The position numbers and the translations under genes are program-made. DNA of 53,874 nucleotides from Prevotella sp. (GTDB lineage Bacteria; Bacteroidota; Bacteroidia; Bacteroidales; Bacteroidaceae): positions 1 through 53,874 of the forward strand of contig JAGCRH010000046.1 of assembly GCA_017964785.1 (NCBI GenBank), in the 5' to 3' direction. The notes under the pieces were generated by a model. It was not told the DNA's origin, ran no database searches, and saw only the letters and a program-made list of their open reading frames with translations. This document shows, piece by piece, positions 30,576 to 53,726 of the stretch (position 1 is the stretch's first letter; each line of letters begins with the position of its first letter).

Positions 30576-31643
30576 TTAATTCGTTAAATTCGTTGTTGTA
30601 TAGTACGCTTTGTACCACTCCGCAAATTGGCGGAGTCCTTCTCTCAACGTGATCTTCGGTGTAAATCCGAAGTCACGTTCCAAGGCGGTGGCATCCGCGT
30701 ACGTCGTCGGCACGTCGCCAGGCTGCATCGGCACCAGTTGCTTGTGCGCTTCGAAGTCATAGTCCCCAGGGAGCACCTCGGCCCGTACCAGTTCCTCTTG
30801 CAGGATATTTACAAAGTCGAGCAGGTTTTCCGGCTGTCCGCCACCTATATTATAAATCGCGTACGGGGGAATGGGCAGACCGTCCTCTCCTTTCTTGCGT
30901 TCCGGTGCACCCTGCATCACCCGCACGATACCCTCCACGATGTCATCCACGTAGGTAAAGTCCCTGCGACAATTACCGTAGTTATAGATCTGGATGGTAT
31001 CGCCCTTCAGCAGTTTGTTCGTAAACCCGAAGTACGCCATGTCCGGTCGTCCTGCCGGTCCATACACCGTAAAGAAGCGCAGTCCCGTTGTCGGGATATC
31101 GTACAGTTTCGAATAACAGTGCGCCATGAGTTCGTTGCTCTTCTTCGTGGCGGCATACAGACTCACGGGGTTGTCCACCCGGTCGTCTGTGCTAAAGGGA
31201 ACCTTCTTATTTCCACCGTAAACACTTGAACTCGAAGCATATACCAAGTGCTCGACGGGGTGGTTTCGACACGCTTCGAGGATATTGTAGAAGCCGATGA
31301 TATTACTCTGTATATACGCATCTGGGTTCTCTATCGAGTACCTTACGCCCGCCTGCGCCGCCAGATTGACCACCACCTGAGGCTGGTATTGTTCGAAGAT
31401 CTGGTCGATCAAGGCCTTGTCCGCAAGATCGCCCTTCACGAAGGTGTAGTTGACGTCCGAGGGAACGAGGCGTTCGAGTTCTTTCAAACGCCATTCCTTC
31501 AACGAAACGTCATAATAATCATTTAGATTGTCAATATTGACAATCGTCTGATAGGTCTTCTCTCCAAAAAGTCGTTTTATCAGATTGGAACCGATGAACC
31601 CGGCTCCACCAGTTACAAAAACCGTTTTTTTATCACTATCCAT
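30576..31643 (-). CDS. UDP-glucuronate 4-epimerase-like SDR enzyme
   Basis: Extended short-chain dehydrogenase interconverting UDP-glucuronate and UDP-galacturonate. Rossmann motif VFVTGGAGFIGSNLIKRL at residue 8; NLAAQAGVRYSIENPDAY, YASSSSVYGG and the catalytic pair in YAATKKSNE (YxxxK), then TGLRFFTVYGPAGRPDMA and RRDFTYVDDIVEGI. The GVRYSI block and overall order match bacterial CapI/LpsL-type UDP-glucuronate epimerases, and ugd upstream supplies the substrate. 355 residues. First of three tightly spaced genes (epimerase, kinase, nucleotidyltransferase). A hairpin/terminator element separates it from ugd. Confidence 0.85.
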   Translation of the reverse strand: MDSDKKTVFVTGGAGFIGSNLIKRLFGEKTYQTIVNIDNLNDYYDVSLKEWRLKELERLVPSDVNYTFVKGDLADKALIDQIFEQYQPQVVVNLAAQAGVRYSIENPDAYIQSNIIGFYNILEACRNHPVEHLVYASSSSVYGGNKKVPFSTDDRVDNPVSLYAATKKSNELMAHCYSKLYDIPTTGLRFFTVYGPAGRPDMAYFGFTNKLLKGDTIQIYNYGNCRRDFTYVDDIVEGIVRVMQGAPERKKGEDGLPIPPYAIYNIGGGQPENLLDFVNILQEELVRAEVLPGDYDFEAHKQLVPMQPGDVPTTYADATALERDFGFTPKITLREGLRQFAEWYKAYYTTTNLTN

Positions 31644-43040: not shown

Positions 43041-43622
43041 TTATACTCGATTATATTGATGATACAAATCCTGAGTTAACTCCAGAAGTTCATGACTATC
43101 ATCAAACAACCGACGTTCGTCCTCAGGAGCATCCTCAAAGAAATGGTCAAAGTCTATCTTATAGGAGTTTTTAGCGTCCTTATTTTCCAACATCTCCTTA
43201 TAGAAAGTCCATTCAGGGAACTTATGAGAAATTTCGGAGAGTTTCATGGCATCATATTGATTATACACTGCAAGAACTTTATCCAATGCTTCTAAATCTG
43301 ATTCTGAGAATTCCTTTAAATCGGGTTCTGCAATAGCTTTATATTGGTGATCGTCTAAGATCAGATACTTATTTTTGTATCCTTTTGGCTCCTTCAGTTT
43401 CGTTTTGGCATTCTCCAGAAGACACTTGGCATCAGATGGAACGATACCAAAAGGCATCGCATAATAGGCATCGCCAGTTATTGTTCTACCAGTCTGCCTC
43501 AAATGGTAACGGTCTGCCAACCATAAAAGCTTGTAGGCCTTCATGTTATCCAACATCTTATCGGGCTGATAGTTAGCCAGATAAACCAATGCTTGTACAA
43601 TTTTTCTAATATCCTTAGCCAT
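43041..43622 (-). CDS. Panacea-domain (DUF4065/SocA-like) antitoxin candidate
   Basis: 193 residues. Start ATG 43622 (MAKDIRKIVQALVYLANYQ) is chosen; an upstream TTG at 43634 sits on the -7 box. The Panacea pattern is clear: LDNMKAYKLLWLADRYHLRQTGRTITGDAYYAMPFGIVPSDAKCLL, in which (K)LLxLxDxxHL...G.T(I)xGxxYxAxxxGPVP is the family core. The middle and C-terminal helices (SDLEALDKVLAVYNQYDAMKLSEISHKFPEW) match the usual second half. First gene of a two-gene unit with its own promoter. Confidence 0.8.
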   Translation of the reverse strand: MAKDIRKIVQALVYLANYQPDKMLDNMKAYKLLWLADRYHLRQTGRTITGDAYYAMPFGIVPSDAKCLLENAKTKLKEPKGYKNKYLILDDHQYKAIAEPDLKEFSESDLEALDKVLAVYNQYDAMKLSEISHKFPEWTFYKEMLENKDAKNSYKIDFDHFFEDAPEDERRLFDDSHELLELTQDLYHQYNRV

Positions 43623-43631
43623 ATTCCGCTG

Positions 43632-43662
43632 CAAAGATACGATTAATTATCGAGATTACCAA
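43632..43662 (-). promoter_or_regulatory. Promoter of the Panacea toxin-antitoxin pair
   Basis: Minus strand: TTG (43662-43660), 20-base spacer, TATCTTTG (43639-43632). It decides the start at 43622 and indicates that the pair is transcribed separately from the large defence operon. Confidence 0.75.
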
Positions 43663-43694: not shown

Positions 43695-43904
43695 CTATTG
43701 GTACTGATTCTTCCTCCTATACTGTTCCGTCAATTCCAAAAGTTTTCTAAACTTCTCTACCCTCTCCGGTTTCAACGTCCCAGCATTCATTACCTTTCTG
43801 TTTGCCTTCAGCCAGGTATAATAGGCACCTCTTTCCTCTGCATCATATTTAGAAGGATTCCGCTTATTGGTCTCAATAAACGTTACCACTTCATTATATC
43901 TCAT
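43695..43904 (-). CDS. Stand-alone helicase-associated-domain protein
   Basis: 69 residues: IETNKRNPSKYDAEERGAYY, then TWLKANRKVMNAGTLKPERVEKFRKLLEL. It matches the helicase-associated (HA) repeat usually found in several copies at the C-terminus of large Bacteroidetes helicases, here as a single unit (a basic NKRNPSK turn, WLKxNRKxMNxGxLxxERVEKFxxLLEL). Starts 34 bases after the gajB-like stop on the same strand, so it is probably the last gene of the defence operon. Could be a DNA-binding accessory to the helicase or a remnant. Confidence 0.6.
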   Translation of the reverse strand: MRYNEVVTFIETNKRNPSKYDAEERGAYYTWLKANRKVMNAGTLKPERVEKFRKLLELTEQYRRKNQYQ

Positions 43905-43938
43905 TTCTCATCTTTCATCCTGCGTCATACTATCACTT

Positions 43939-45651
43939 CTAATCAAAGCTTATAACATCTCCGAACCTATTCGTCAACATTGCCTTCTCTTTTTCTTCAA
44001 GTTCTGGTATATTGATAAACAATCTATTCCTTGCACGACTAGAGGCCACATAATAAAGCCTGTGGTCATCATCAACCTGTGCTAAATCCGTATTCAACAG
44101 GAAGCCTAATCCGACTTCTTTCTCTGGAAACACCAACAGCACATTATCAAACCCCAAACCTTTCGATTTATGAATGGTAATAAAGTACGTATTGTCATCC
44201 GTGTAATTCACACTCTTTGCATAATCTGCGTATGGTTTTTGATATGCTTCCAGTACACCACCTCTCGAAACCTTTGGGATATTTTCATCTATCTCTCTCA
44301 GTTTGTTTAGGAAATCAAGCAAAGTCCCATTACAGTATTCATCGTATGCCTTCAGCAAGGCATACATATTAACGATTGCTTTCTTTTTCTGATTGATGTG
44401 CTTCGTGTCCAGACGAAAACCTTTGGCAGTGTATTTGACAGCCTCGTCCATTATCAACTGGCGGGCATTCTCTATGCCAGTAATAACATTTACCACCATT
44501 CTTCGTCTGTCAGAATTAGAGTCAAATCCCGACAGATGACCAAGTAGATCCTCCTTTTTGCCATTTGCCTCTAACCCCAACTTCATCACATTGGCATCCT
44601 CATTTTTCCACGTCAGAGCATAAAGTTCTTCATCACCACAATGGTCCAAAGCCTTCTTGTACGCATCTACACTATTACCGCACACTATTGTAACCTTCTC
44701 AAACCGCTCTTCCCTCAAAGACTTTTGTTCCAAATCAGTTCTCAGTATGTTCAAGAAGTCAATAATGTTCTGTGTGCTTCTGTGGTTATCAGCAATTGTA
44801 AACGTCTTGATTCCCGGTGCCGTGAAATTGTCGATATTCGCAATGTCTGCCCCAGCAAAGGTATATATTGACTGTGCCTTATCGCCTATTAGCGTTATCT
44901 TACATCCTGCTTCTGCCAGTTTTGTAAACAGCCAGTGCTGGATGGAGGAGGAATCCTGATATTCATCTATTAACAGATAAGGGAACCTTGATACAAGGAG
45001 CCTTAAAATCCTTGGCTCTTTCTCTATTAGTTTATAGGTGAAATACAGCACGTCATCATGATGCATAATCCCTTTCTCGCTCCACACCTTTTTCTTGTAT
45101 GCCAGCACATATTTCTCACCAATGCCGTTTATTCTGGGATAATTGATTGCCTTCTGCAACTCAATGCCTTTCTTCGTCAATACCCATCTGTAGTCCTCGA
45201 CGGTTTGTTTCAGCTTATATGATTCATTAGCATACTTCAAAAGCATCCCCATCCTGTTAGCCTTCATCAAATCAGAAACGAAACCGTAACTTGAGATTAT
45301 CGTCTCGTCGTGTCCGTCCAATAGATCAATGGCAAACCCCTCTTCCTTTGCAATCAGATGGAAATAAGGTTTAATGATGTTCTTATAGAGAAAGCCGTGT
45401 ATAGTAGAAACCTCCAACCGGTTATTGTTTGCACCCACATGACTCAGTATATTTTCTGTAGCCTTGTTGGTATATGTAATGCATCCCACCTTTCTACTGA
45501 GTCCCAGGTCTTTGGCATTCGATAAGATATGCTTTATTTGACCGATAAGCCAATGTGTCTTACCCGCACCAGGACCGGCCAACACCTTTATACAAGTGTC
45601 GAAAGGCTGAACATCCTCGGAATGTATGGTTCCGTCTAACTTAACGCCCAT
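43939..45651 (-). CDS. gajB: GajB-like UvrD/Rep-type helicase
   Basis: Superfamily 1 helicase, the second subunit of Gabija-type anti-phage systems. Motifs: Walker A VLAGPGAGKTHWLI (residues 23-36), Ia GCITYTNKATENI, TIHGFLY, II YLLIDEYQDSSSIQHW, III ITLIGDKAQSIYTFAGADI, IV DNHRSTQNIIDFLN, V TIHKSKGLGFDNVLLVFPE and VI LYYVASSRARNRLFI. 570 residues, near the GajB length. Its first 16 bases overlap the end of the OLD nuclease gene, the order and coupling expected for gajA-gajB. It sits in a longer operon behind a retron. Confidence 0.82.
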   Translation of the reverse strand: MGVKLDGTIHSEDVQPFDTCIKVLAGPGAGKTHWLIGQIKHILSNAKDLGLSRKVGCITYTNKATENILSHVGANNNRLEVSTIHGFLYKNIIKPYFHLIAKEEGFAIDLLDGHDETIISSYGFVSDLMKANRMGMLLKYANESYKLKQTVEDYRWVLTKKGIELQKAINYPRINGIGEKYVLAYKKKVWSEKGIMHHDDVLYFTYKLIEKEPRILRLLVSRFPYLLIDEYQDSSSIQHWLFTKLAEAGCKITLIGDKAQSIYTFAGADIANIDNFTAPGIKTFTIADNHRSTQNIIDFLNILRTDLEQKSLREERFEKVTIVCGNSVDAYKKALDHCGDEELYALTWKNEDANVMKLGLEANGKKEDLLGHLSGFDSNSDRRRMVVNVITGIENARQLIMDEAVKYTAKGFRLDTKHINQKKKAIVNMYALLKAYDEYCNGTLLDFLNKLREIDENIPKVSRGGVLEAYQKPYADYAKSVNYTDDNTYFITIHKSKGLGFDNVLLVFPEKEVGLGFLLNTDLAQVDDDHRLYYVASSRARNRLFINIPELEEKEKAMLTNRFGDVISFD

Positions 45652-47564
45652 TCTATAGCTTTTTTGATGTAAGGAGGCACATTGAACTTTTCTCTTTCTG
45701 CTTCCGGCAAATCCATAATGGCATTCGATAGCTCCAACGCATTCACACCTTTTGAAACCGACTCCAGATAGCGACTTGCAATTGAAACCTTATCAGCATT
45801 TTCAGCTTCCATCATCTTTTTCAACTCATCCGTATTCCTCAATGATGGAACACGAAGAACCTTATTGGTGGGATTATTCAAAGCTATCTCATACTCCAGG
45901 GTACAACCGTCCTCGTTCTGGCTGAAATAACGGATATTCTTATGAGCCTCATACTTCTTAACCAACGACTCCGAATTATTACTATACTCATACTTGGCGG
46001 TATCAGCATTATATTCACTTGGCGTGCATGACTCAAACCGTGCGTTAGCCTTTCCCTTTTCTTTTCTCACAGGATCTCTATCAGTAATACAAGCCACTTT
46101 CAAAGTCAATGCATCCGGGTTGGTACTATCGTATATCTTAAGGAAGTTATCAAAATAGCGGCCTCCAATGTTGATCACAACGATATGCTTCTTCAACCAC
46201 TTGTCATACATTCCCAAAAGTCTGGCAAAGACAGGTAGCAATACCTGCTCTGCAATACCCTCCACAAAAATGACTCCACCCGCAAACAACATATCTGCAC
46301 GAGTAGCATCCAAATAGCGTTGGATAAATTTCTTGGCGGGTTCATCTTTCGCAAACACCTTTTTTGGAGAATACACCTTTACTGCGCCATCCTCCAATCT
46401 ATGCAGACAGCATAGTTCATCCAGTTTCACACTTGCAACCAAACTGGGTGAGTGTGAAGTAACGAACACCTGTTTGACATGTTTGTCCACTATGTTGTTT
46501 CTGAGAAACTCCAAAAACTGATACTGCATTTGCGGATGCAAATGCGCCTCCGGCTCTTCTATGGCCAATACAGAGAATGCTTTTACATTCGAACTTCCCA
46601 TAAAGTCAACCTTGGCGTTCGACTGCATCTTGGCCAGCAATAGGGATATATAGATAAGATTGTTATACCCAAGTCCATTCAATGCCACAGGTAATTTTTC
46701 ACCTTTACCGTCGCCAACCAACAAATCCAGAACAGCAAGCAAATCTCCTTCCGTGACATCACCTTCCAGATTGAGTTTGTTGTTCGAGAATAAAGCACCC
46801 GTTCTGTTGGCATATTCAACGATGTTGTCCTTTCCAGCATTGATTCTCTTGACGAGTTTCTCAATAACATCGTGTGTGTCTGTCATAAACGTCTGATGCC
46901 TTTCTGCGACTTTATCTTCCCTATCCTTATCCTCATTTAAGTCGTAGTCCAAGAAATAGCGTAAGACATCTTTCAAGAGCGCTGCTCGCCCGCCATATAT
47001 TTCGTCCTCCACGTTGCGCAATGCATTCACAAACTCAAAATCTATCTTTTTGAGGTCTTCTCCCTGTGCCTGGTTTTGAGCAGAAACAGGACCACCATAG
47101 ATTGTATGCGTGTACTTACGAATATACTTGTCTTCAACAACTTTAAAGAGCGAGTATTTGTCCGTTACATCCGCTACGTCCTTTTTGTATTTATCTACCT
47201 CCGTCTGAGGCAAACCATACACGTATGTCAAGCAAGATTCAAGCAGGGGTGATGTTTGAACCGCATAGTTAGTAAACAGTGCCACATCATCAGACATTCC
47301 TTCTTCCTTCTGCTCCTTGATAAACACAGACACCTTCACAGAAGGAGGATTATCTTTTAGCCCTTGCTGGTCTTCCTTCTGGCAAAAGTCCCATGCGCTG
47401 AGGTTTTTCTGCGAGCCATATTCCAATACCAGCCTAAGAGCATCCATAATTGTACTCTTGCCACCATTGTTATGCCCAATTATGACATTCAATCCTTCCT
47501 GAAATTCTATTTCAGAATGCTTGAATCCCCGAAATCCATCTATGATAATTCTCGAAATATACAT
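45636..47564 (-). CDS. gajA: GajA-like OLD-family ATPase/TOPRIM endonuclease
   Basis: OLD-family nuclease. ABC-type ATPase domain: GLNVIIGHNNGGKSTIMDALRLVLEYG (Walker A at residues 30-38) and FSVLAIEEPEAHLHPQMQYQFLEFLR (Walker B), with HSPSLVASVKLDELC as H-loop. The TOPRIM domain follows: GGVIFVEGIAEQVLLPVFARLLG gives the conserved Glu, and VACITDRDPVRKE the DxD pair. 642 residues. In Gabija, GajA nicks or cuts DNA when nucleotides fall, with GajB downstream; this pair has the same order. Starts 12 bases after the reverse transcriptase stop. Confidence 0.83.
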   Translation of the reverse strand: MYISRIIIDGFRGFKHSEIEFQEGLNVIIGHNNGGKSTIMDALRLVLEYGSQKNLSAWDFCQKEDQQGLKDNPPSVKVSVFIKEQKEEGMSDDVALFTNYAVQTSPLLESCLTYVYGLPQTEVDKYKKDVADVTDKYSLFKVVEDKYIRKYTHTIYGGPVSAQNQAQGEDLKKIDFEFVNALRNVEDEIYGGRAALLKDVLRYFLDYDLNEDKDREDKVAERHQTFMTDTHDVIEKLVKRINAGKDNIVEYANRTGALFSNNKLNLEGDVTEGDLLAVLDLLVGDGKGEKLPVALNGLGYNNLIYISLLLAKMQSNAKVDFMGSSNVKAFSVLAIEEPEAHLHPQMQYQFLEFLRNNIVDKHVKQVFVTSHSPSLVASVKLDELCCLHRLEDGAVKVYSPKKVFAKDEPAKKFIQRYLDATRADMLFAGGVIFVEGIAEQVLLPVFARLLGMYDKWLKKHIVVINIGGRYFDNFLKIYDSTNPDALTLKVACITDRDPVRKEKGKANARFESCTPSEYNADTAKYEYSNNSESLVKKYEAHKNIRYFSQNEDGCTLEYEIALNNPTNKVLRVPSLRNTDELKKMMEAENADKVSIASRYLESVSKGVNALELSNAIMDLPEAEREKFNVPPYIKKAIEWALS

Positions 47565-47576
47565 ATCTTCAATCTG

Positions 47577-48620
47577 TTACACCAACCAATTTAATTCATT
47601 AAACTGCTCCAGCATCTTGTTTCCACAAGCAGGATCAATCTGTCTGATAAACATAATCCGCCCTCTCAGCCAGTCTTTATACAGTCCCTTGTCTGTTCCC
47701 ATATTGTGATAATGCTCATAAACACCAAACCTCTTACAAAAGTATAGTTCCCTCCACACTTCTTTCCTGTATTTCTTCGGCACATGCACACCATCAGTTA
47801 CAGTCAGTCCCGTCACTTCTTTCTTGTAACCCCTGCCACGAACTTTGGTCTTTTGTCGGTTGACAATAAACCCATGCTTGAATACAATGGCATACAATTC
47901 CTTCAACGGCGGCATTTCCACATCCAGATTAGCCGAGAATGTTAAATCATCAGCATACCTTGTGTAGGTAATCCCGCGCTCCTTGCAGTACTCCAGCATC
48001 GCCTTATCCATCTTGGCAGCTATAAGGTTCGACAGCATCGGGCTTGTCGGAGCCCCCTGCGGCAGTCTCGATTTCAACGTACACAATGCAGTAAGTGTTT
48101 TTGTCACCTCTTCTTCATAGCCCAACGAATCAAAATAGTCCTTCACCATATCCAAGGTCACGGCATGAAAGAAGTTCTTTAAATCCAAATTGATAATCCA
48201 GTCGTGTCCGGAATGAGGCATTGCATTCGTCAATATGCCTCGGGCCCTGTCGTTTTCAGTTAGCACTGGTACAAAGCCATGCACACAATTTTGCAGTGAC
48301 TTATCCCTACAGAGTATATTCACGTATATCCACCGCTGTACATTCTTCAGCAGATAGTCTGGCGCCTCTATCCTTCTTTTCCCACCCGATTTCTTTTTGA
48401 TATCGTATTCTTGATAATGGCTTTCCACATTGGCTACGATGCCCTGGAGTTGTTTGGCCAGGCATTTCAAGTAAGAAGCCAAATGTAGGAAGTCAAAGAT
48501 CACAGGCATATTACGCTCATGCAGCTTTCCTGCATATTCCAGACACTGCACAATGTATTCATCAGAGTGTTTCTCCTCCAATGCTTGTTCTTTGAAAAGA
48601 GACTCCCAGGTTTCTGTCAT
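47577..48620 (-). CDS. Retron reverse transcriptase
   Basis: Group of bacterial retron RTs. Motifs in order: KKKSGGKRRIEAP near residue 80, region X as NAMPH (132-136, the NAxxH signature of retrons), INLDLKNFFHAV (motif A, 143-153), LPQGAPTSPMLSNLI (186-200), RYADDLTFSA (catalytic YADD 222-225), KHGFIVNRQKTKV (motif D), and VTG (269-271, the region Y triplet). 347 residues. No fused effector domain. A foldable msr-msd lies immediately upstream and its a2 arm overlaps the ATG. It would copy that RNA to msDNA. Not a diversity-generating or group II intron RT: no maturase or target-repeat features seen. Confidence 0.92.
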   Translation of the reverse strand: MTETWESLFKEQALEEKHSDEYIVQCLEYAGKLHERNMPVIFDFLHLASYLKCLAKQLQGIVANVESHYQEYDIKKKSGGKRRIEAPDYLLKNVQRWIYVNILCRDKSLQNCVHGFVPVLTENDRARGILTNAMPHSGHDWIINLDLKNFFHAVTLDMVKDYFDSLGYEEEVTKTLTALCTLKSRLPQGAPTSPMLSNLIAAKMDKAMLEYCKERGITYTRYADDLTFSANLDVEMPPLKELYAIVFKHGFIVNRQKTKVRGRGYKKEVTGLTVTDGVHVPKKYRKEVWRELYFCKRFGVYEHYHNMGTDKGLYKDWLRGRIMFIRQIDPACGNKMLEQFNELNWLV

Positions 48621-48773
48621 AGCCTTTTACGTTCTTGTCACTTTAGTGACGAGTCGGAACAAACTTGTTTTGTTTCGACCCATCAGTGTAATGGTGTTTT
48701 AATTTCAGTATAGTCCACGAGACATACCGGCAAAGAGTGTTTCATCTTCACTGTAAGCTAAAATTCTATGACA
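48615..48773 (-). ncRNA. Retron msr-msd RNA
   Basis: Between the phosphoribosyltransferase and RT genes. Arms a1 TGTCATAG-AA-TTTTA (48773-48759) and a2 TAAAA-GG-CTATGACA (48629-48615) pair over 13 bases with one AA/GG internal mismatch. Guanosine 48758, directly after a1 in the TTAGC context, fits the branch residue. The msr part carries a hairpin GTAT-GTC, loop TCGTG, GAC-t-ATAC (48727-48708) and a weaker AGTG/CACT pair before it. The msd is a long stem: TGATGGGTCGAAACAAA (48685-48669), loop ACAAG, TTTGTTCCGACTCGTCA (48663-48647), 16 of 17 positions paired counting two G-T. a1 covers the upstream stop codon and a2 the RT start codon. Confidence 0.85.
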
Positions 48774-50073
48774 TTCCCCTGAAAGTCTCTGGTATATACA
48801 TATAGTCTCTGTCATCGACCACTTTAACTTCAAGATCTTCTTTATTCTCTATTCTGAATATCTTGACCGCCTCTTCCAGTGCCTTGCTTGCATCGGCAGT
48901 CGGCTTGTGCTTGTCATCCCATAAACCCAACTTTTCTCCTTCTTCAAACAGAACCGACATATCATCGTGAGTCAGTCCCATGTCGTTTGCAATGACCGTC
49001 TCCGGCAAATGGCTCTCAAGGCATCTCAACAGGTAGGTCAGTTTCACATTCTTGTCTTCTATTACGCTTTTCCAGTCAGGGTCATCAAGATCCACACCAA
49101 AGTACTGCGACAGTTTGAACACCCACCTGTTATTATCCATGCGTTTGATGAATGCCATGTTCTGCTTCTTCATCTGGTTCCTCGCTATCAGCGGCTGCCA
49201 GTACTTCGTCACCCCTTCTTCTTCATACTCATCCACCCAGACAATTGGCAGTGTATTGTTCGGAATGGCATGGGCAAACATCAGCAAAGCTTGCGAGTTT
49301 GAATATCCAAGTTCTCTTCCCTTACAAATCCTTGCTCCATACTTATAGCAGAATTCCCTTACCTGCCTCATCTTAAGGTAGCCCCCAAATAGTGATTTCC
49401 CCTTATCAAAAGCATGATGCCGTTCTTCCCCATAAATGGCCATAAAAGGATAAGCCTTTTCCAGCCTTGCTTTCCCCTTGTCCATCAAGAAACAACTTAG
49501 CAACACCGTTTTATACGATGTCCCATCTTTTACTATATGACCTATAGTCCATTCGTTAGGTTTTTCTTCCTTTGCCCCGTCCTTCTTAATTTTTGTTATA
49601 GTTGGACTGACCGCCGACATGAATGTATCCCCCGAGCCAATGATGTCATCCAGAAATATCAGCACATCCGTCACCCCCAAGTCTGCCACCTTCACCTCTT
49701 TCGGATGCCCGTAATAGACAATCTTCCCTATGTGAGGATACGATGGCTGTTTAAACAAGTTCTTAACAAGATATTGTATCACATATCCGCTCTTCCCTGG
49801 ACGGCCTAACGGCACAAAGTGCAGATTAACTCCCTTATTTACCGCTTCCCAAGCATCCTGTATAATATCATGCAATTTGCTTGCAAGTATCCCTAATAAA
49901 TCCTCTTCCCTATAGTATTCCAACCGTTCGAATACAGACACGGCCAACTCCAACTCGTCATCATCAAAGTTGTCGAGCCATCGGTACACATCATACAGAT
50001 CCAGTCTATCATAAAACCGGTATCTTATGGTATCCATTATCCGTTTCTGCAGTTCTTCAGATGGAATTCTCAT
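48766..50073 (-). CDS. Retron-associated phosphoribosyltransferase-like protein with winged helix
   Basis: 435 residues. N-terminal helical part (KRIMDTIRYRFYDRLDLYDVYRWLDNFDDDELELAVSVFERLEYY) of the kind seen in PRTase/winged-helix retron proteins. The PRTase core has HFVPLGRPGKSG near residue 86 and the PRPP-binding signature DVLIFLDDIIGSGDTF (136-151). The C-terminus (LRCLESHLPETVIANDMGLTHDDMSVLFEEGEKLGLWDD) looks like a winged helix. PRTase-winged-helix proteins mark type III retrons. Starts by overlapping the HNH gene (4 bases, ATGA); the stop codon lies inside the msr a1 arm. Catalysis on PRPP is not certain; members may act as nucleotide-binding effectors. Confidence 0.75.
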   Translation of the reverse strand: MRIPSEELQKRIMDTIRYRFYDRLDLYDVYRWLDNFDDDELELAVSVFERLEYYREEDLLGILASKLHDIIQDAWEAVNKGVNLHFVPLGRPGKSGYVIQYLVKNLFKQPSYPHIGKIVYYGHPKEVKVADLGVTDVLIFLDDIIGSGDTFMSAVSPTITKIKKDGAKEEKPNEWTIGHIVKDGTSYKTVLLSCFLMDKGKARLEKAYPFMAIYGEERHHAFDKGKSLFGGYLKMRQVREFCYKYGARICKGRELGYSNSQALLMFAHAIPNNTLPIVWVDEYEEEGVTKYWQPLIARNQMKKQNMAFIKRMDNNRWVFKLSQYFGVDLDDPDWKSVIEDKNVKLTYLLRCLESHLPETVIANDMGLTHDDMSVLFEEGEKLGLWDDKHKPTADASKALEEAVKIFRIENKEDLEVKVVDDRDYMYIPETFRGMS

Positions 50074-51029
50074 TTATAATCCTCCCTTATCTTCCTCATC
50101 ACATCACTCTTGAACTTCGACATCGGCCTCTTCAGGTAATTCTCTTCTTCTACCTCCATACCAAACAGTATCCTGTAGGCATCTGCCTCGTTCACGCCCA
50201 GCTTTGCCATCACGTCGTTCACCAGCGTTGTGATGTAATCCGGATGATTCTCCGCAGCCAAATCCAATAGTTCTTTTAGTTCCAGTCCAGAATGTGCACC
50301 GTATATCTGTGGCAGCTTAAACAGTCCCAGCGTATTCTCCACCTTCCTGTAATAGGCATCGTCCACCCCCTTCTCCCGCTCTATGTCCACGGCATATCCA
50401 TCCGAGGTTGGTACATACGAGAATCGAAAACCCGTCCTTCTGTCAATATACGGATGAACATAATGCTCCAAATCCATCTCCTGTCTGTTCTTCAGGTTCG
50501 AGTTGCAGGTATGGCACGCTGGTATCAGGTTGTAATACGATAATGCCAAGTCTGGGTAGTCCATCTGCGAGAGCCAGTGGTCAAACTCAGGCCGTATCAA
50601 ATGCTCCACAACCGTTCCGTTCACATCTACGTCATCCACCGTCAGCGTATATTGCCGATTGCAGTAGGTGCAGGTGTTCACGTCCATCAGATGTGCCAAG
50701 GCATAACTCATCTCCTGATTCTGCTTGATATAGTAGTCGTAGTTGAACACATGTACTACGAACTGACGTATATCATCATTTAACTCACCGTTAGCAGTTC
50801 CCAGCGTCCGTACCATTTCTTCGTGAAGCTCCAACAGTCTCTCTGGTCTGGCCGTCATATACTCCTCCACCTTTTCCTTTGTGAAATGTTGGTGGGCAGC
50901 ACTGTTCTTCATCGTTCTGCTTACGTTCTTCTTCAGCCGCGTCCGCTCGTCAAAGGCCAAGCCGGTATGCTGATATATCAAATGTTTGAAGGTTTCAGCC
51001 TTCTTGTCGTCAGCTTTCAGTATCCACAT
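50070..51029 (-). CDS. PtuB-like HNH endonuclease
   Basis: 319 residues. HNH/beta-beta-alpha-metal domain around 118-180: CTYCNRQYT (first Cys pair, 120-123), RPEFDHWLSQ (catalytic His151), SYYNLIPACHTCNSNLKN (Asn and second Cys pair 172/175). Helical N-terminal and C-terminal extensions. HNH proteins paired with an ABC-like ATPase form the Septu (PtuAB) module and the effector of type I-A retrons. Overlaps the ATPase gene by 20 bases and the PRTase gene by 4. Confidence 0.82.
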   Translation of the reverse strand: MWILKADDKKAETFKHLIYQHTGLAFDERTRLKKNVSRTMKNSAAHQHFTKEKVEEYMTARPERLLELHEEMVRTLGTANGELNDDIRQFVVHVFNYDYYIKQNQEMSYALAHLMDVNTCTYCNRQYTLTVDDVDVNGTVVEHLIRPEFDHWLSQMDYPDLALSYYNLIPACHTCNSNLKNRQEMDLEHYVHPYIDRRTGFRFSYVPTSDGYAVDIEREKGVDDAYYRKVENTLGLFKLPQIYGAHSGLELKELLDLAAENHPDYITTLVNDVMAKLGVNEADAYRILFGMEVEEENYLKRPMSKFKSDVMRKIREDYK

Positions 51030-53310
51030 AGTCTTTCCTCCATTCCAGCACTTCCTTCAGCCGCCTTCTGATGATGGGTTCCTGTATTACGTCAGACATC
51101 TTCCTGATAAACTGCCAGTCGATATACTCTGTCAAAAAAACTTTCTTCAGCTGTTCTTGATACGTCTCTGGCAACGACCTGTATATCTGATAATTCTCTT
51201 CTATCACCCGATTCACATCGCCTTGGCTAAGCTCAAGTTTCCGACTCAAGTATGCGGCATTCACTTGGTCTATCATCCTCACGATGGTCTCTTTGGCAAA
51301 CTGCCCCATCGCACCGCCTTTCAAGAAGAAACTATTCACCAGCATCGTGTGAATATTGGCGCCAAACGATGCCACCTCACTTTTGTCTGCCTTGTGACCG
51401 CCCTTCTCCAGAAACAGGATATTCTGTGCGGGTATGTCCGAGAGTACAAACGGCGAGTGCGTCACTATCATAAAGTGCAGACTCCTGATGCCTTCCAACG
51501 GCAACTGTTGCAGTCCGTGCAGCAGTGTGCTGATGAAGTTTCGCTGCATCTCAGGATGGAAGTACAGCTCAATCTCGTCGAATATCACGTTGATGTGTTT
51601 ATACACTATCTGCTCCCTGTCGTTATCCGGAGTGTGCCAGAAATCTCTTGCTGAGTCCAGGCATATCATATAGTAGAACAGCGAGCAAAGTATATAGGTT
51701 ATCTGCTTCTCGCCCGAACTCAGTGTACTGAACTTTATTCTATGCCGTTTCTTTGTTTCGTCAATGTCGTAAAGATGGAAGTCCACCTTGAACAGCGGGG
51801 GTGGCAGCATCTCGTTCGTGTTCCTCGGAGGATAGTCCAGCATAATATCAGGCACATCGTCAGGTATATGCTCGAAAATCTCGTTTATCCTGTCTGCTAA
51901 CTGATACGTCTGGAACGAGGTATGCTTGTCAATATGGTCGTACCGCAGGTAATTCAAGGTGCGCCACAGTTTCGTGGTGATATGGCTGTGGTCTTGCCAC
52001 AAGTTCTTCAAATCCTTTGTTAATCCTTCTTTGTCTTCTTCCCTCAGTTTAACCTTCTTTTTGGCAAGGAAAATTCTCGTTTTCTCATACCGGGGATAGG
52101 TCATAAATATCTTAATTGTCTTTGCCACCAGATAATTAATGGCCGCCTCTTTGTGGAACCTTTCAAACTGCGACAGGTGAAAGGCACTTTCATACTTTTC
52201 TCTGATAAAGTCCCTTACGTCTGCATAAAACTCTGTACTATACTCTGGCAGATCTGGATGACTGTCTGGCGCTTCCTTGTATTTTTCTATCAGGTCGTAG
52301 TTTGCCTGTAGCGTGAATCCTTCGATCCGTAACTTGTCGTTGATTTCACTGAAGGGGAAACGTTTCCCGCTCTTTCTGTTTTCGCGCTTGTCCTCCACAA
52401 ACAACAGCGAGAGCAAACGCTCTTCCGAGAGGTCGTTCTCGTTGTTGATGTCAATCATACCGTAGTCTCTCTTTGGTGATATTACTATCGGTGTTTGGAA
52501 TCCGTCGTTTTTGTGGAACACGCCGCTCAACCATGAGTATCCTTCCGAGAAGTTTTTATCAAGCAGTGATTTTGTCAGTTTCCTCACCTTACCGGTTCTG
52601 TCAAACATATAGCGTGGCCTATATAGTCCTTCTTTGAATCCCGTTTTTCTGATGCGAATTTCCTTCGCTGCCCAGGTATTCTCATCGCTGTATGCTACCG
52701 AATTATAGCTGTGCATCGAATAGTTCAGAACGGTGTTATAGCACATACCAGCCAGCAACTCGATATGTTTCGAGTGCGGTTTGCACGTCTCACCTTTCTT
52801 CAGCACGTCGGCAATCTTGTGAGGGCTCTGCCATTCATACCTCCGTTCGTTCTTGTTCAGACGGTACTCAACCACCTCTATTCCCAAATCAAAGCAGCGT
52901 ACACAGTATATCGTCTCTTCTATCTCGATATACACCTCTGCAAACACGCCCGGTATGAAATGAAGATGTTCCGCTTTAGGAAACAGGAACTCCTCTCCAA
53001 AGATGTAGGCCGCCAAGTTATTGATTACGCGTATGTATATATCCACCAGTGTACTCTTTCCAGCACCGTTCTCGCCCACGACGGCACAGATGTCCACATT
53101 GAATCCAGACTCCGTCTTCCCTGCTGCATATCTTCTGGGATTGTAGAGGTCGTCAGGCACATTCCTCTCCGTCTTCTGGATATAGTCATCCTTGATGTCA
53201 TACCCGTCGTAGAGGTAGTAGAACTCATCCTCCCTCAATCCCTTCAATACCGACCATTTACCAGTGTTGTTAAGGTCTCTCTTCAGTGGTCTTATACAAA
53301 TTACACGCAT
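51010..53310 (-). CDS. PtuA-like ABC/SMC-type ATPase
   Basis: 766 residues, partner of the HNH nuclease. Walker A AVVGENGAGKSTLV near 76-89, ABC signature LSSGEKQ (530-536), Walker B NVIFDEIELYFHPE near 574-587, H-loop MIVTHSPFVLSD near 614-625. The long middle part (about 150-500) is mainly helical and charged, consistent with a coiled-coil or lid region, and contains no nuclease motif that I can see. The gene comes first in the defence operon. No TAnnTTTG promoter is visible in the 86 bases upstream, so the unit may start further upstream or use another sigma. Confidence 0.82.
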   Translation of the reverse strand: MRVICIRPLKRDLNNTGKWSVLKGLREDEFYYLYDGYDIKDDYIQKTERNVPDDLYNPRRYAAGKTESGFNVDICAVVGENGAGKSTLVDIYIRVINNLAAYIFGEEFLFPKAEHLHFIPGVFAEVYIEIEETIYCVRCFDLGIEVVEYRLNKNERRYEWQSPHKIADVLKKGETCKPHSKHIELLAGMCYNTVLNYSMHSYNSVAYSDENTWAAKEIRIRKTGFKEGLYRPRYMFDRTGKVRKLTKSLLDKNFSEGYSWLSGVFHKNDGFQTPIVISPKRDYGMIDINNENDLSEERLLSLLFVEDKRENRKSGKRFPFSEINDKLRIEGFTLQANYDLIEKYKEAPDSHPDLPEYSTEFYADVRDFIREKYESAFHLSQFERFHKEAAINYLVAKTIKIFMTYPRYEKTRIFLAKKKVKLREEDKEGLTKDLKNLWQDHSHITTKLWRTLNYLRYDHIDKHTSFQTYQLADRINEIFEHIPDDVPDIMLDYPPRNTNEMLPPPLFKVDFHLYDIDETKKRHRIKFSTLSSGEKQITYILCSLFYYMICLDSARDFWHTPDNDREQIVYKHINVIFDEIELYFHPEMQRNFISTLLHGLQQLPLEGIRSLHFMIVTHSPFVLSDIPAQNILFLEKGGHKADKSEVASFGANIHTMLVNSFFLKGGAMGQFAKETIVRMIDQVNAAYLSRKLELSQGDVNRVIEENYQIYRSLPETYQEQLKKVFLTEYIDWQFIRKMSDVIQEPIIRRRLKEVLEWRKDYVDTES

Positions 53311-53372
53311 CTCAGTCTTTTCCTTTCGTCCCTTGCTCAGCGATTCTATCGCGCTTTTCTTTAGCCACCGCT

Positions 53373-53392
53373 CCCTACGGTTTTCCGTAGGG
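53373..53392. repeat. Perfect hairpin between the 109-residue gene and the defence operon
   Basis: CCCTACGG, loop TTTT, CCGTAGGG. Eight perfect pairs, no T-run on either side, so not a standard terminator. Could be a processing or attenuator site at the operon head. Confidence 0.6.
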
Positions 53393-53396
53393 CCAG

Positions 53397-53726
53397 TTAT
53401 CTTCTCATCCCCTCCATCTCACTCTCCACCATCTTCATCAACTGTGGCATCATCATTTCGATCTTCCGACACTTCACCTTATTGAAATGGTAATCCATAT
53501 CGTCCAAGAGTTCATTAGCCAACTCTTCGGGCATATCACCGGCATAGCCAGCGGCAAAGAGGGCGATGGCGGCAAGTTTTCGGGCATCCTTATTCGCTCT
53601 TAAATGTGAAGCACTCAGGATAGTGGGAAGCATCTCATATAGGATATTGCAATAGTGTAGAAGTTCTGAGAAATAATCGTCATCCTGAAGGAAGGCATCG
53701 AGCATCTCTTCTTCATACTGTCTCAA
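53397..53726 (-). CDS. Unrecognised 109-residue helical protein
   Basis: Begins with TTG 53726 (or ATG 53705) because no ATG lies in frame upstream before a stop. Charged helices (YEEEMLDAFLQDDDYFSELLHYCNILYEMLPTIL, then SASHLRANKDARKLAAIALFAAGYAGDM and a Met-rich C-terminus). No domain recognised. It is on the same strand as the defence operon, 86 bases ahead, with a hairpin between. The upstream 148 bases to the window end show only AT-rich sequence with repeated AGATTCT/AGGATT motifs and no gene. Confidence 0.5.
   Translation of the reverse strand: MRQYEEEMLDAFLQDDDYFSELLHYCNILYEMLPTILSASHLRANKDARKLAAIALFAAGYAGDMPEELANELLDDMDYHFNKVKCRKIEMMMPQLMKMVESEMEGMRR

Follow-up and report, generated by a model that had tools for sequence, protein, structure and literature searches.

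A type III-A retron between Septu-like and Gabija gene pairs in Prevotella: a probable stack of three defence systems

Gene content of the locus

We analysed a stretch of 53,874 nucleotides (nt) from Prevotella sp. (contig JAGCRH010000046.1 of assembly GCA_017964785.1), hereafter the window, whose open reading frames (ORFs) include six minus-strand genes lying head to tail and encoding an ATPase, an HNH nuclease, a phosphoribosyltransferase with a winged helix-turn-helix (PRTase-wHTH), a retron reverse transcriptase (RT), GajA and GajB. Together with an msr-msd RNA they are arranged as follows.

51010..53310, minus strand: ATPase, SMC/ABC-like AAA, PDC-M62A (Septu-like, PtuA-type), 766 aa
50070..51029, minus strand: HNH nuclease, PDC-M62B, 319 aa, overlapping the ATPase by 20 bases
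48766..50073, minus strand: PRTase-wHTH, candidate effector of a type III-A retron, 435 aa, overlapping the HNH gene by 4 bases
48598..48790, minus strand: msr-msd RNA, between and into the coding edges of PRTase and RT
47577..48620, minus strand: retron reverse transcriptase, type III-A, 347 aa
45636..47564, minus strand: GajA, OLD-family ATPase with TOPRIM, 642 aa, starting 12 nt after the RT stop
43939..45651, minus strand: GajB, UvrD-like helicase, 570 aa, overlapping GajA by 16 bases

An earlier note, made from the sequence alone, had described a row of ATPase, HNH, PRTase-wHTH, msr-msd RNA and RT with overlaps of 20 and 4 bases, and the ORFs and protein models agree with that row. Its set of five elements is present but overlooked GajA and GajB, and its interval of 48615..53310 spans the ATPase to the RNA while leaving the RT (47577-48620) outside, since it ends at the RT start codon. 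The comparison with PADLOC models that it proposed returned PDC-M62A/B, PRTase_III-A, RT_III-A, GajA and GajB.

The ATPase scored 149 bits on the PADLOC model PDC-M62A, as against 59 on ATPase_I-A and 56 on PtuA; its Pfam match was AAA_21, and its translation contains GENGAGKS, SSGEK and FDEIE, which we take to be the Walker A, signature and Walker B motifs, respectively. The adjacent HNH protein scored 165.5 bits on PDC-M62B and 18.9 bits on Pfam HNH, short of the cutoff of 21.4, and shows the residues CTYC...DHW...CHTC. With both proteins matching PDC-M62A/B best, the pair belongs to PDC-M62, differing from Septu in its weak scores on the PtuA and PtuB models (56 and 31 bits) and in being joined to a retron. 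Calls of the two kinds overlap in a Bacillus cereus group survey, the accessible part of which gives 203 PDC-M62 among 244 Septu duplicates (PMC11811056). The locus also resembles the type I-A retrons (Ec78/Ec83, with a PtuA-type ATPase) in having an RT beside an ATPase-HNH pair, but its RT is of type III-A, its ATPase scored far lower on ATPase_I-A than on PDC-M62A, and a PRTase effector is present as well; we therefore rejected I-A membership for the pair. HNH_I-A was absent from the 25 top-scoring of the 47 families matched by the HNH protein. Of the two affinities that the earlier note had read from ATPase plus HNH, the Septu-like one thus held and the I-A one did not.

The PRTase matched PRTase_III-A over nearly its whole length (336 bits) and Pfam PRTase-CE with 131 bits, while its 25.9 bits on wHTH-PRTase_assc fell slightly short of the cutoff of 27. 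Its reading frame is intact, and the loops GKSG and DD..GSG are kept across ten aligned III-A PRTases, save for one GKSS and one GTG. The RT scored 366 bits on RT_III-A, with type II-A next best at 267, and 147 bits against the Ec86 RT; NAxxH, QGAPTSP, YADD and VTG, which we take to be RT motifs, are invariant across seven aligned RTs. In searches of solved structures the PRTase profile matched no chain with an E value of 1 or below, and a single, apparently unrelated chain matched the HNH protein at E 0.7.

An RT of the III-A family, as judged by model scores rather than by an RT tree, thus lies beside a PRTase with a winged helix, in line with the earlier note's use of a PRTase-winged-helix protein as a mark of type III. 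Both proteins have III-A models as their best matches and form the usual pair with the RNA between them; PRTase-wHTH plus RT is described as the typical III-A set in the accessible text of PMC12548924. The locus differs from this set in that its core is joined, within a single cassette, to a Septu-like pair and a Gabija pair. The Gabija assignment rests on adjacent GajA (769 bits; Pfam OLD-like_TOPRIM 44.9 bits) and GajB (601 bits; Pfam UvrD-helicase 127 bits) genes with their overlap, and the pair differs from Gabija elsewhere in beginning just behind an RT in the same apparent operon.

The six genes probably form one transcript. A scan found no minus-strand terminator-like sites between the genes and two weak ones within the ATPase and GajA genes; the promoter scan of the locus used a sigma-70 pattern only. 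Between the upstream gene and the ATPase lies a perfect inverted repeat, CCCTACGG-TTTT-CCGTAGGG (window 53373-53392), read by eye and absent from the terminator scan's list, which is possibly a terminator or an operon boundary.

The gap between PRTase and RT is 145 nt, and the RNA extends into the coding edges on both sides. The following parts were recognised, all on the minus strand; the a1/a2, msd and branch-G assignments presumably hold here as in the retron anatomy that we assumed.

48790-48778/48610-48598, minus strand: outer stem, 13 pairs, inside coding sequence on both sides
48772-48766/48622-48616, minus strand: a1/a2-like stem, GTCATAG (with the PRTase stop TAG) pairing with CTATGAC (with the RT start ATG)
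48685-48671/48661-48647, minus strand: msd-like hairpin
48758, minus strand: possible branch G

A 197-nt RNA folded at -69.4 kcal/mol, as against a mean of -41.1 for shuffled sequences (z -6.4), and none of 200 shuffles reached as low. In a six-locus alignment the structure has 58 pairs, with 98.6% of 348 cells paired, and pairing falls to 37-47% when partners are slid by 1-3 columns; double changes occur in 7 of the 58 pairs, a number matched by one of 500 shuffles. Since the outer and a1/a2-like stems show no double changes among the six loci, support for these stems comes from conservation. Among degenerate codons whose residue is invariant, all six loci use the same codon in 7 of 8 cases at the PRTase 3' end, compared with 31 of 226 elsewhere in that gene; for the RT the figures are 4 of 8 at the 5' end and 18 of 193 elsewhere. 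The earlier note's suggestion that the RNA shares its flanking codons is borne out by the stems inside coding sequence and by this codon conservation. Rfam gave no family match at gathering scores. The msr-msd RNA is well supported by its predicted fold and alignment, and a structured RNA that precedes the RT and has an a1/a2-like stem closing it places the locus in type III-A by its architecture rather than by comparison with a III-A RNA model.

A six-gene block shared by two species

A search of genome contigs with a three-member PRTase alignment returned nine loci, among them one in Prevotella sp. SIG146 (L047) that carries all six genes in the same order and with the same 20- and 4-base overlaps. 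Protein identities between the two loci are 91% (ATPase), 87% (HNH), 74% (PRTase), 83% (RT), 85% (GajA) and 87% (GajB), and the homology over the cassette forms a single 9.77-kb DNA block (window 43695-53439) that extends 244 nt beyond GajB and 129 nt upstream of the ATPase; other matches are a separate 0.84 kb (window 30610-31442) and a few short repeats. The ratio of nonsynonymous to synonymous divergence (dN/dS) is 0.06-0.10 in the five genes for which it could be computed, while the synonymous sites of the PRTase are saturated (proportions of differing synonymous and nonsynonymous sites, pS 0.83 and pN 0.18). Given the common order and overlaps, the single homology block and the dN/dS values, we regard the cassette as a conserved block that was either retained whole or transferred whole. 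Just downstream of it on the same strand, and outside the block shared with L047, is a gene that Pfam places as SocA/Panacea antitoxin-like (window 43041-43634).

Judged by these alignments, the modules do not co-diverge. DNA identity between the window and L047 is 83-94% along the ATPase (dS 0.45) and 60-66% in the middle of the PRTase, and the L047 PRTase is closer to those of two loci without ATPase-HNH, L049 and L050 (80.5-81.1%), than to that of the window (73.6%). Conservation within the cassette is lowest in the middle of the PRTase (window 49301-49900). Comparison of the window with L047, L049 or L048 gives 50-65% identity over residues 81-200, as against 92% over residues 1-40, and identity in the middle is also low between the other pairs compared (62-80%). 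The contrast between PRTase and ATPase is consistent with retron alleles having been exchanged while the frame around them stayed fixed, which would be easier if the parts need not match one another; a higher rate of change in the PRTase would also add to the divergence between the window and L047.

Retron cores and ATPase-HNH pairs at other loci

Six close loci, with PRTases at least 69% identical, were compared (the window, L047, L048, L049, L050 and L006). ATPase-HNH lies upstream of the core in two of them, and in the other four PRTase-RT stands without an adjacent ATPase-HNH pair. In L049 and L050 the core is followed by a same-strand Gabija pair of a different lineage, in L048 a Gabija-type pair is convergent to the RT, and L006 has neither ATPase-HNH nor Gabija. 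Homology between the window and L049 or L050 begins at the PRTase ATG and ends about 8 nt beyond the RT stop, and that between L048 and L006 is a 2.53-kb block with only PRTase, RNA and RT. Elsewhere in the genome of L048 the HNH search gave a weak match on another contig (2.4e-10); there was none in the genomes of L049 and L050 at 1e-6, nor in that of L006 at 1e-10. The record of L048 is titled as a metagenome-assembled genome of Pseudobutyrivibrio, a label that we take to denote a Firmicute, and its retron is 84-88% identical to that of a genome of the window's order (G259), so that either mis-binning or transfer would account for it.

We counted 14 distinct III-A PRTase-RT loci, or 13 after dropping L051, a 4.5-kb contig with 183 bp upstream; L007 and L053 are one locus and were counted once, and L008, with in-frame stops in its PRTase relative and no RT, was left uncounted. 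By ORF calls, eight of the 13 have a same-strand gene of another defence system within 32 nt or overlapping. The partners are ATPase-HNH and Gabija (window, L047), Gabija of another lineage (L049, L050), HsdS and HsdM (L009), HsdS (L052) and NA37 (L063, L065). The core of L009 (5312-10742) sits inside a type I restriction operon in the order HsdS-PRTase-RT-HsdM, with 11-base overlaps on each side, and that of L052 begins 2 nt after HsdS. In L065 (52-10784) and L063 (3267-10953) the PRTase comes directly after the stop of NA37 in a Lamassu-like set, identified by scanning in L065 and by similar ORFs in L063; in both, the RT is also closely followed by a gene of 234 aa, similar between the two loci, for which Pfam gave no match in L065. 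Translations read by eye showed no defence-like neighbours in L054 and L055. GajA or GajB matches were found in none of the eight distant III-A loci, in stretches searched with the window pair in all eight and with the other lineages in six.

ATPase-HNH is therefore adjacent to the core in two of the 13 loci, which share one joint, and lies on the same strand without adjacency in one more (L065), so that its link to the III-A core is not constant. The expectation that the elements would stay together was realised for the six-gene set in a second species and failed for ATPase-HNH across III-A loci. The start/stop overlap likewise lost its force as a link specific to ATPase-HNH, as the core also overlaps HsdS and HsdM by 11 bases and abuts NA37.

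At E 1e-10, 18 of 393 genomes of the order Bacteroidales had the HNH gene and five the PRTase, with both only in the window's genome. The III-A core is rare in the family and in the genus of L047, since PRTase searches at E 1e-20 gave matches in two of 399 genomes of the former (that of the window and G459) and in two of 248 genomes of the latter (that of L047 and G944). In the stretches examined from the window's order, a III-A PRTase-RT pair was absent from all 18 further loci that carry an HNH relative, the search for RTs being limited to tblastn at E 1e-3 and three of these stretches (L032, L034, L045) ending at the contig end within about 0.5 kb after HNH. An ATPase relative was present in 17, and the eighteenth stretch begins inside HNH. 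The basis for calling these loci was similarity to the HNH and ATPase of the window; beyond the window, the PDC-M62 models were scanned on L059 and L065 only.

Among the 18, a PRTase_III-A relative (125 bits) occurs in L041 (14184-15134; genome G340) about 5 kb from HNH, with no RT match in 17 kb; its translated neighbourhood places it directly after a gene resembling a DNA methyltransferase. In L036 (5605-10097) ATPase-HNH relatives are followed by a 108-aa ORF and then by an RT whose best match is retron type VI (238 bits) and whose translation has FVDD in place of YADD. Another stack is seen in L030 (4326-11746), where the ATPase-HNH pair is flanked by a gene whose translation is HsdS-like and by one for a Piwi-domain protein, after which comes another ORF. 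On a Segatella copri plasmid (L059, 1576-16390), Qat (by record annotation), PDC-M62, a 290-aa gene and Gabija stand in a row, with no retron within the 17.9 kb read.

In the HNH tree the window's HNH groups with those of L029, L030 and L059 at 100/99, none of which has a retron in the stretches examined. Because the tree leaves L065 outside this group, it suggests that ATPase-HNH joined III-A retrons more than once.

Relatives of the PRTase or ATPase were absent from viral contigs in single-sequence scans sensitive to close relatives only. On plasmids the PRTase had only distant partial matches, in five records, and 25 plasmid records carried ATPase relatives, two of which were read.

Stacked systems and alternative readings

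We consider it probable that the locus is a three-system defence operon in which a type III-A retron stands between the Septu-like ATPase-HNH pair and the Gabija pair as stacked modules. It is a stack of three known systems, not a demonstrated retron with two effector arms. The best reading of the retron core itself is as a plug-in cassette, one that would join other defence operons at their stop and start codons; functional coupling of the systems is possible.

In a stack of this kind the RT would copy the msd part of the RNA into multicopy single-stranded DNA (msDNA), and by analogy with studied retrons the msDNA bound to RT would keep the PRTase-wHTH toxin inactive until phage disturbance released it. 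The ATPase-HNH and Gabija pairs would act as separate nuclease systems with triggers of their own, and stacking would give joint transfer and joint expression rather than one machine. In studied retrons, according to the accessible part of PMC12548924, a toxic effector is held by RT, RNA and RT-DNA until triggered.

Several observations weigh against the stacked reading. The six genes occur together in two species across a synonymous divergence of 0.45 to saturation, and the homology ends near both cassette edges, as would be expected of a single machine. A Gabija-type pair adjoins the RT in five of the six close loci (four same-strand, one convergent). L065, which came from a separate search, has ATPase-HNH, recognised by the PDC-M62 models, 4.7 kb upstream of its III-A core on the same strand, and in L036 the ATPase-HNH relative lies about 0.7 kb upstream of the type VI-like RT, so that an association of such pairs with retrons is seen repeatedly. 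In the HNH tree, moreover, L065 sits on a long branch, and its place in the ATPase tree is unsettled. Finally, the available text of PMC12548924 reports that the III-A Retron-Bpu1 made RT-DNA in E. coli without defending against the phages tested and that the III-A Retron-Ppe1 could not be transformed. Given the Bpu1 result, stand-alone III-A defence is no more than a possibility, and on this account we lowered our confidence in the stacked reading slightly.

It is also conceivable that the retron is an integrated one with two or three arms, the msDNA-RT and PRTase serving as a sensor or antitoxin that also restrains ATPase-HNH, and perhaps GajAB, so that one trigger would govern several nucleases. 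The overlap joints kept in two species and the low dN/dS would suit this, as would the second pairing of ATPase-HNH with a III-A core in L065; names of PDB entries show retron I-A complexes with PtuA-type ATPases, and in the accessible text of PMC12548924 Septu takes over from the NDT effector in types II-A1 and I-A, and PDC-M66 replaces the III-A1 PRTase in Retron-Sda1. Like the window, Retron-Sda1 (a III-A1-like RT with HipA/DUF3037 and PDC-M66) joins a III-A-type retron to another PADLOC candidate, but the PRTase is gone there, whereas in the window it is retained with an open frame and the ATPase-HNH pair is not the I-A one. The earlier note's proposal of a two-arm linkage fares poorly on the distribution of the parts, as four of the six close cores have no adjacent ATPase-HNH and all 18 other HNH loci are without a PRTase-RT pair in the stretches examined, which is largely the separation that it had named as refuting; the PRTase allele also diverges where the ATPase does not. 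We judge the integrated retron unlikely.

A cooperative stack, similarly unlikely, would keep separate mechanisms that are selected together to cover one another's escape routes, with the retron as a back-up suicide arm. Gabija and some retrons, for example, both respond to tampering with RecBCD, and the available parts of PMC12407980 and PMC12904381 tie Gabija and OLD/Retron Ec48 to RecBCD inhibition. The Gabija-type pairs beside the RT in the close loci are, moreover, of different lineages: GajA of L048 and L049 are 29% identical, and those of the window and L049 align in two pieces at 25 and 46%. Set against this are the eight distant III-A loci with no GajA or GajB match in the stretches searched, and the point that these systems may cluster in islands anyway.

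A single machine of all six genes, in which msDNA, RT and PRTase-wHTH form the sole sensor restraining both HNH-ATPase and GajAB and one trigger frees three effectors, strikes us as quite improbable; in a weaker form, Bacteroidota III-A retrons may be a general plug-in through which a retron comes to control other defence operons. A chance juxtaposition of parts that form no common unit, the outcome that the earlier note had attached to separate occurrence of the parts, is hardly credible and was rejected in its pure form, for although every part also occurs without the others, L047, from a second species, repeats the six-gene order and both overlaps (20 and 4 bases) within one 9.77-kb homology block.

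Every component of the stacked locus is of a known kind, and the arrangement is its informative part; titles and abstract openings, from a literature search that mostly did not cover subscription papers, mentioned no III-A retron with ATPase-HNH and Gabija. What the arrangement shows is how the retron travels, in that among the Bacteroidota loci seen a 2.5-kb PRTase-RNA-RT core recurs in unrelated defence operons, often abutting or overlapping the stop and start codons of the host operon. If the systems are linked by transfer and expression only, neighbourhood, or even codon overlap, would be a poor reason to name a new retron subtype; given a mechanistic link, a retron could be a common switch for several nucleases. 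The recurrence of III-A cores within unrelated defence operons tells us more than this one locus does.

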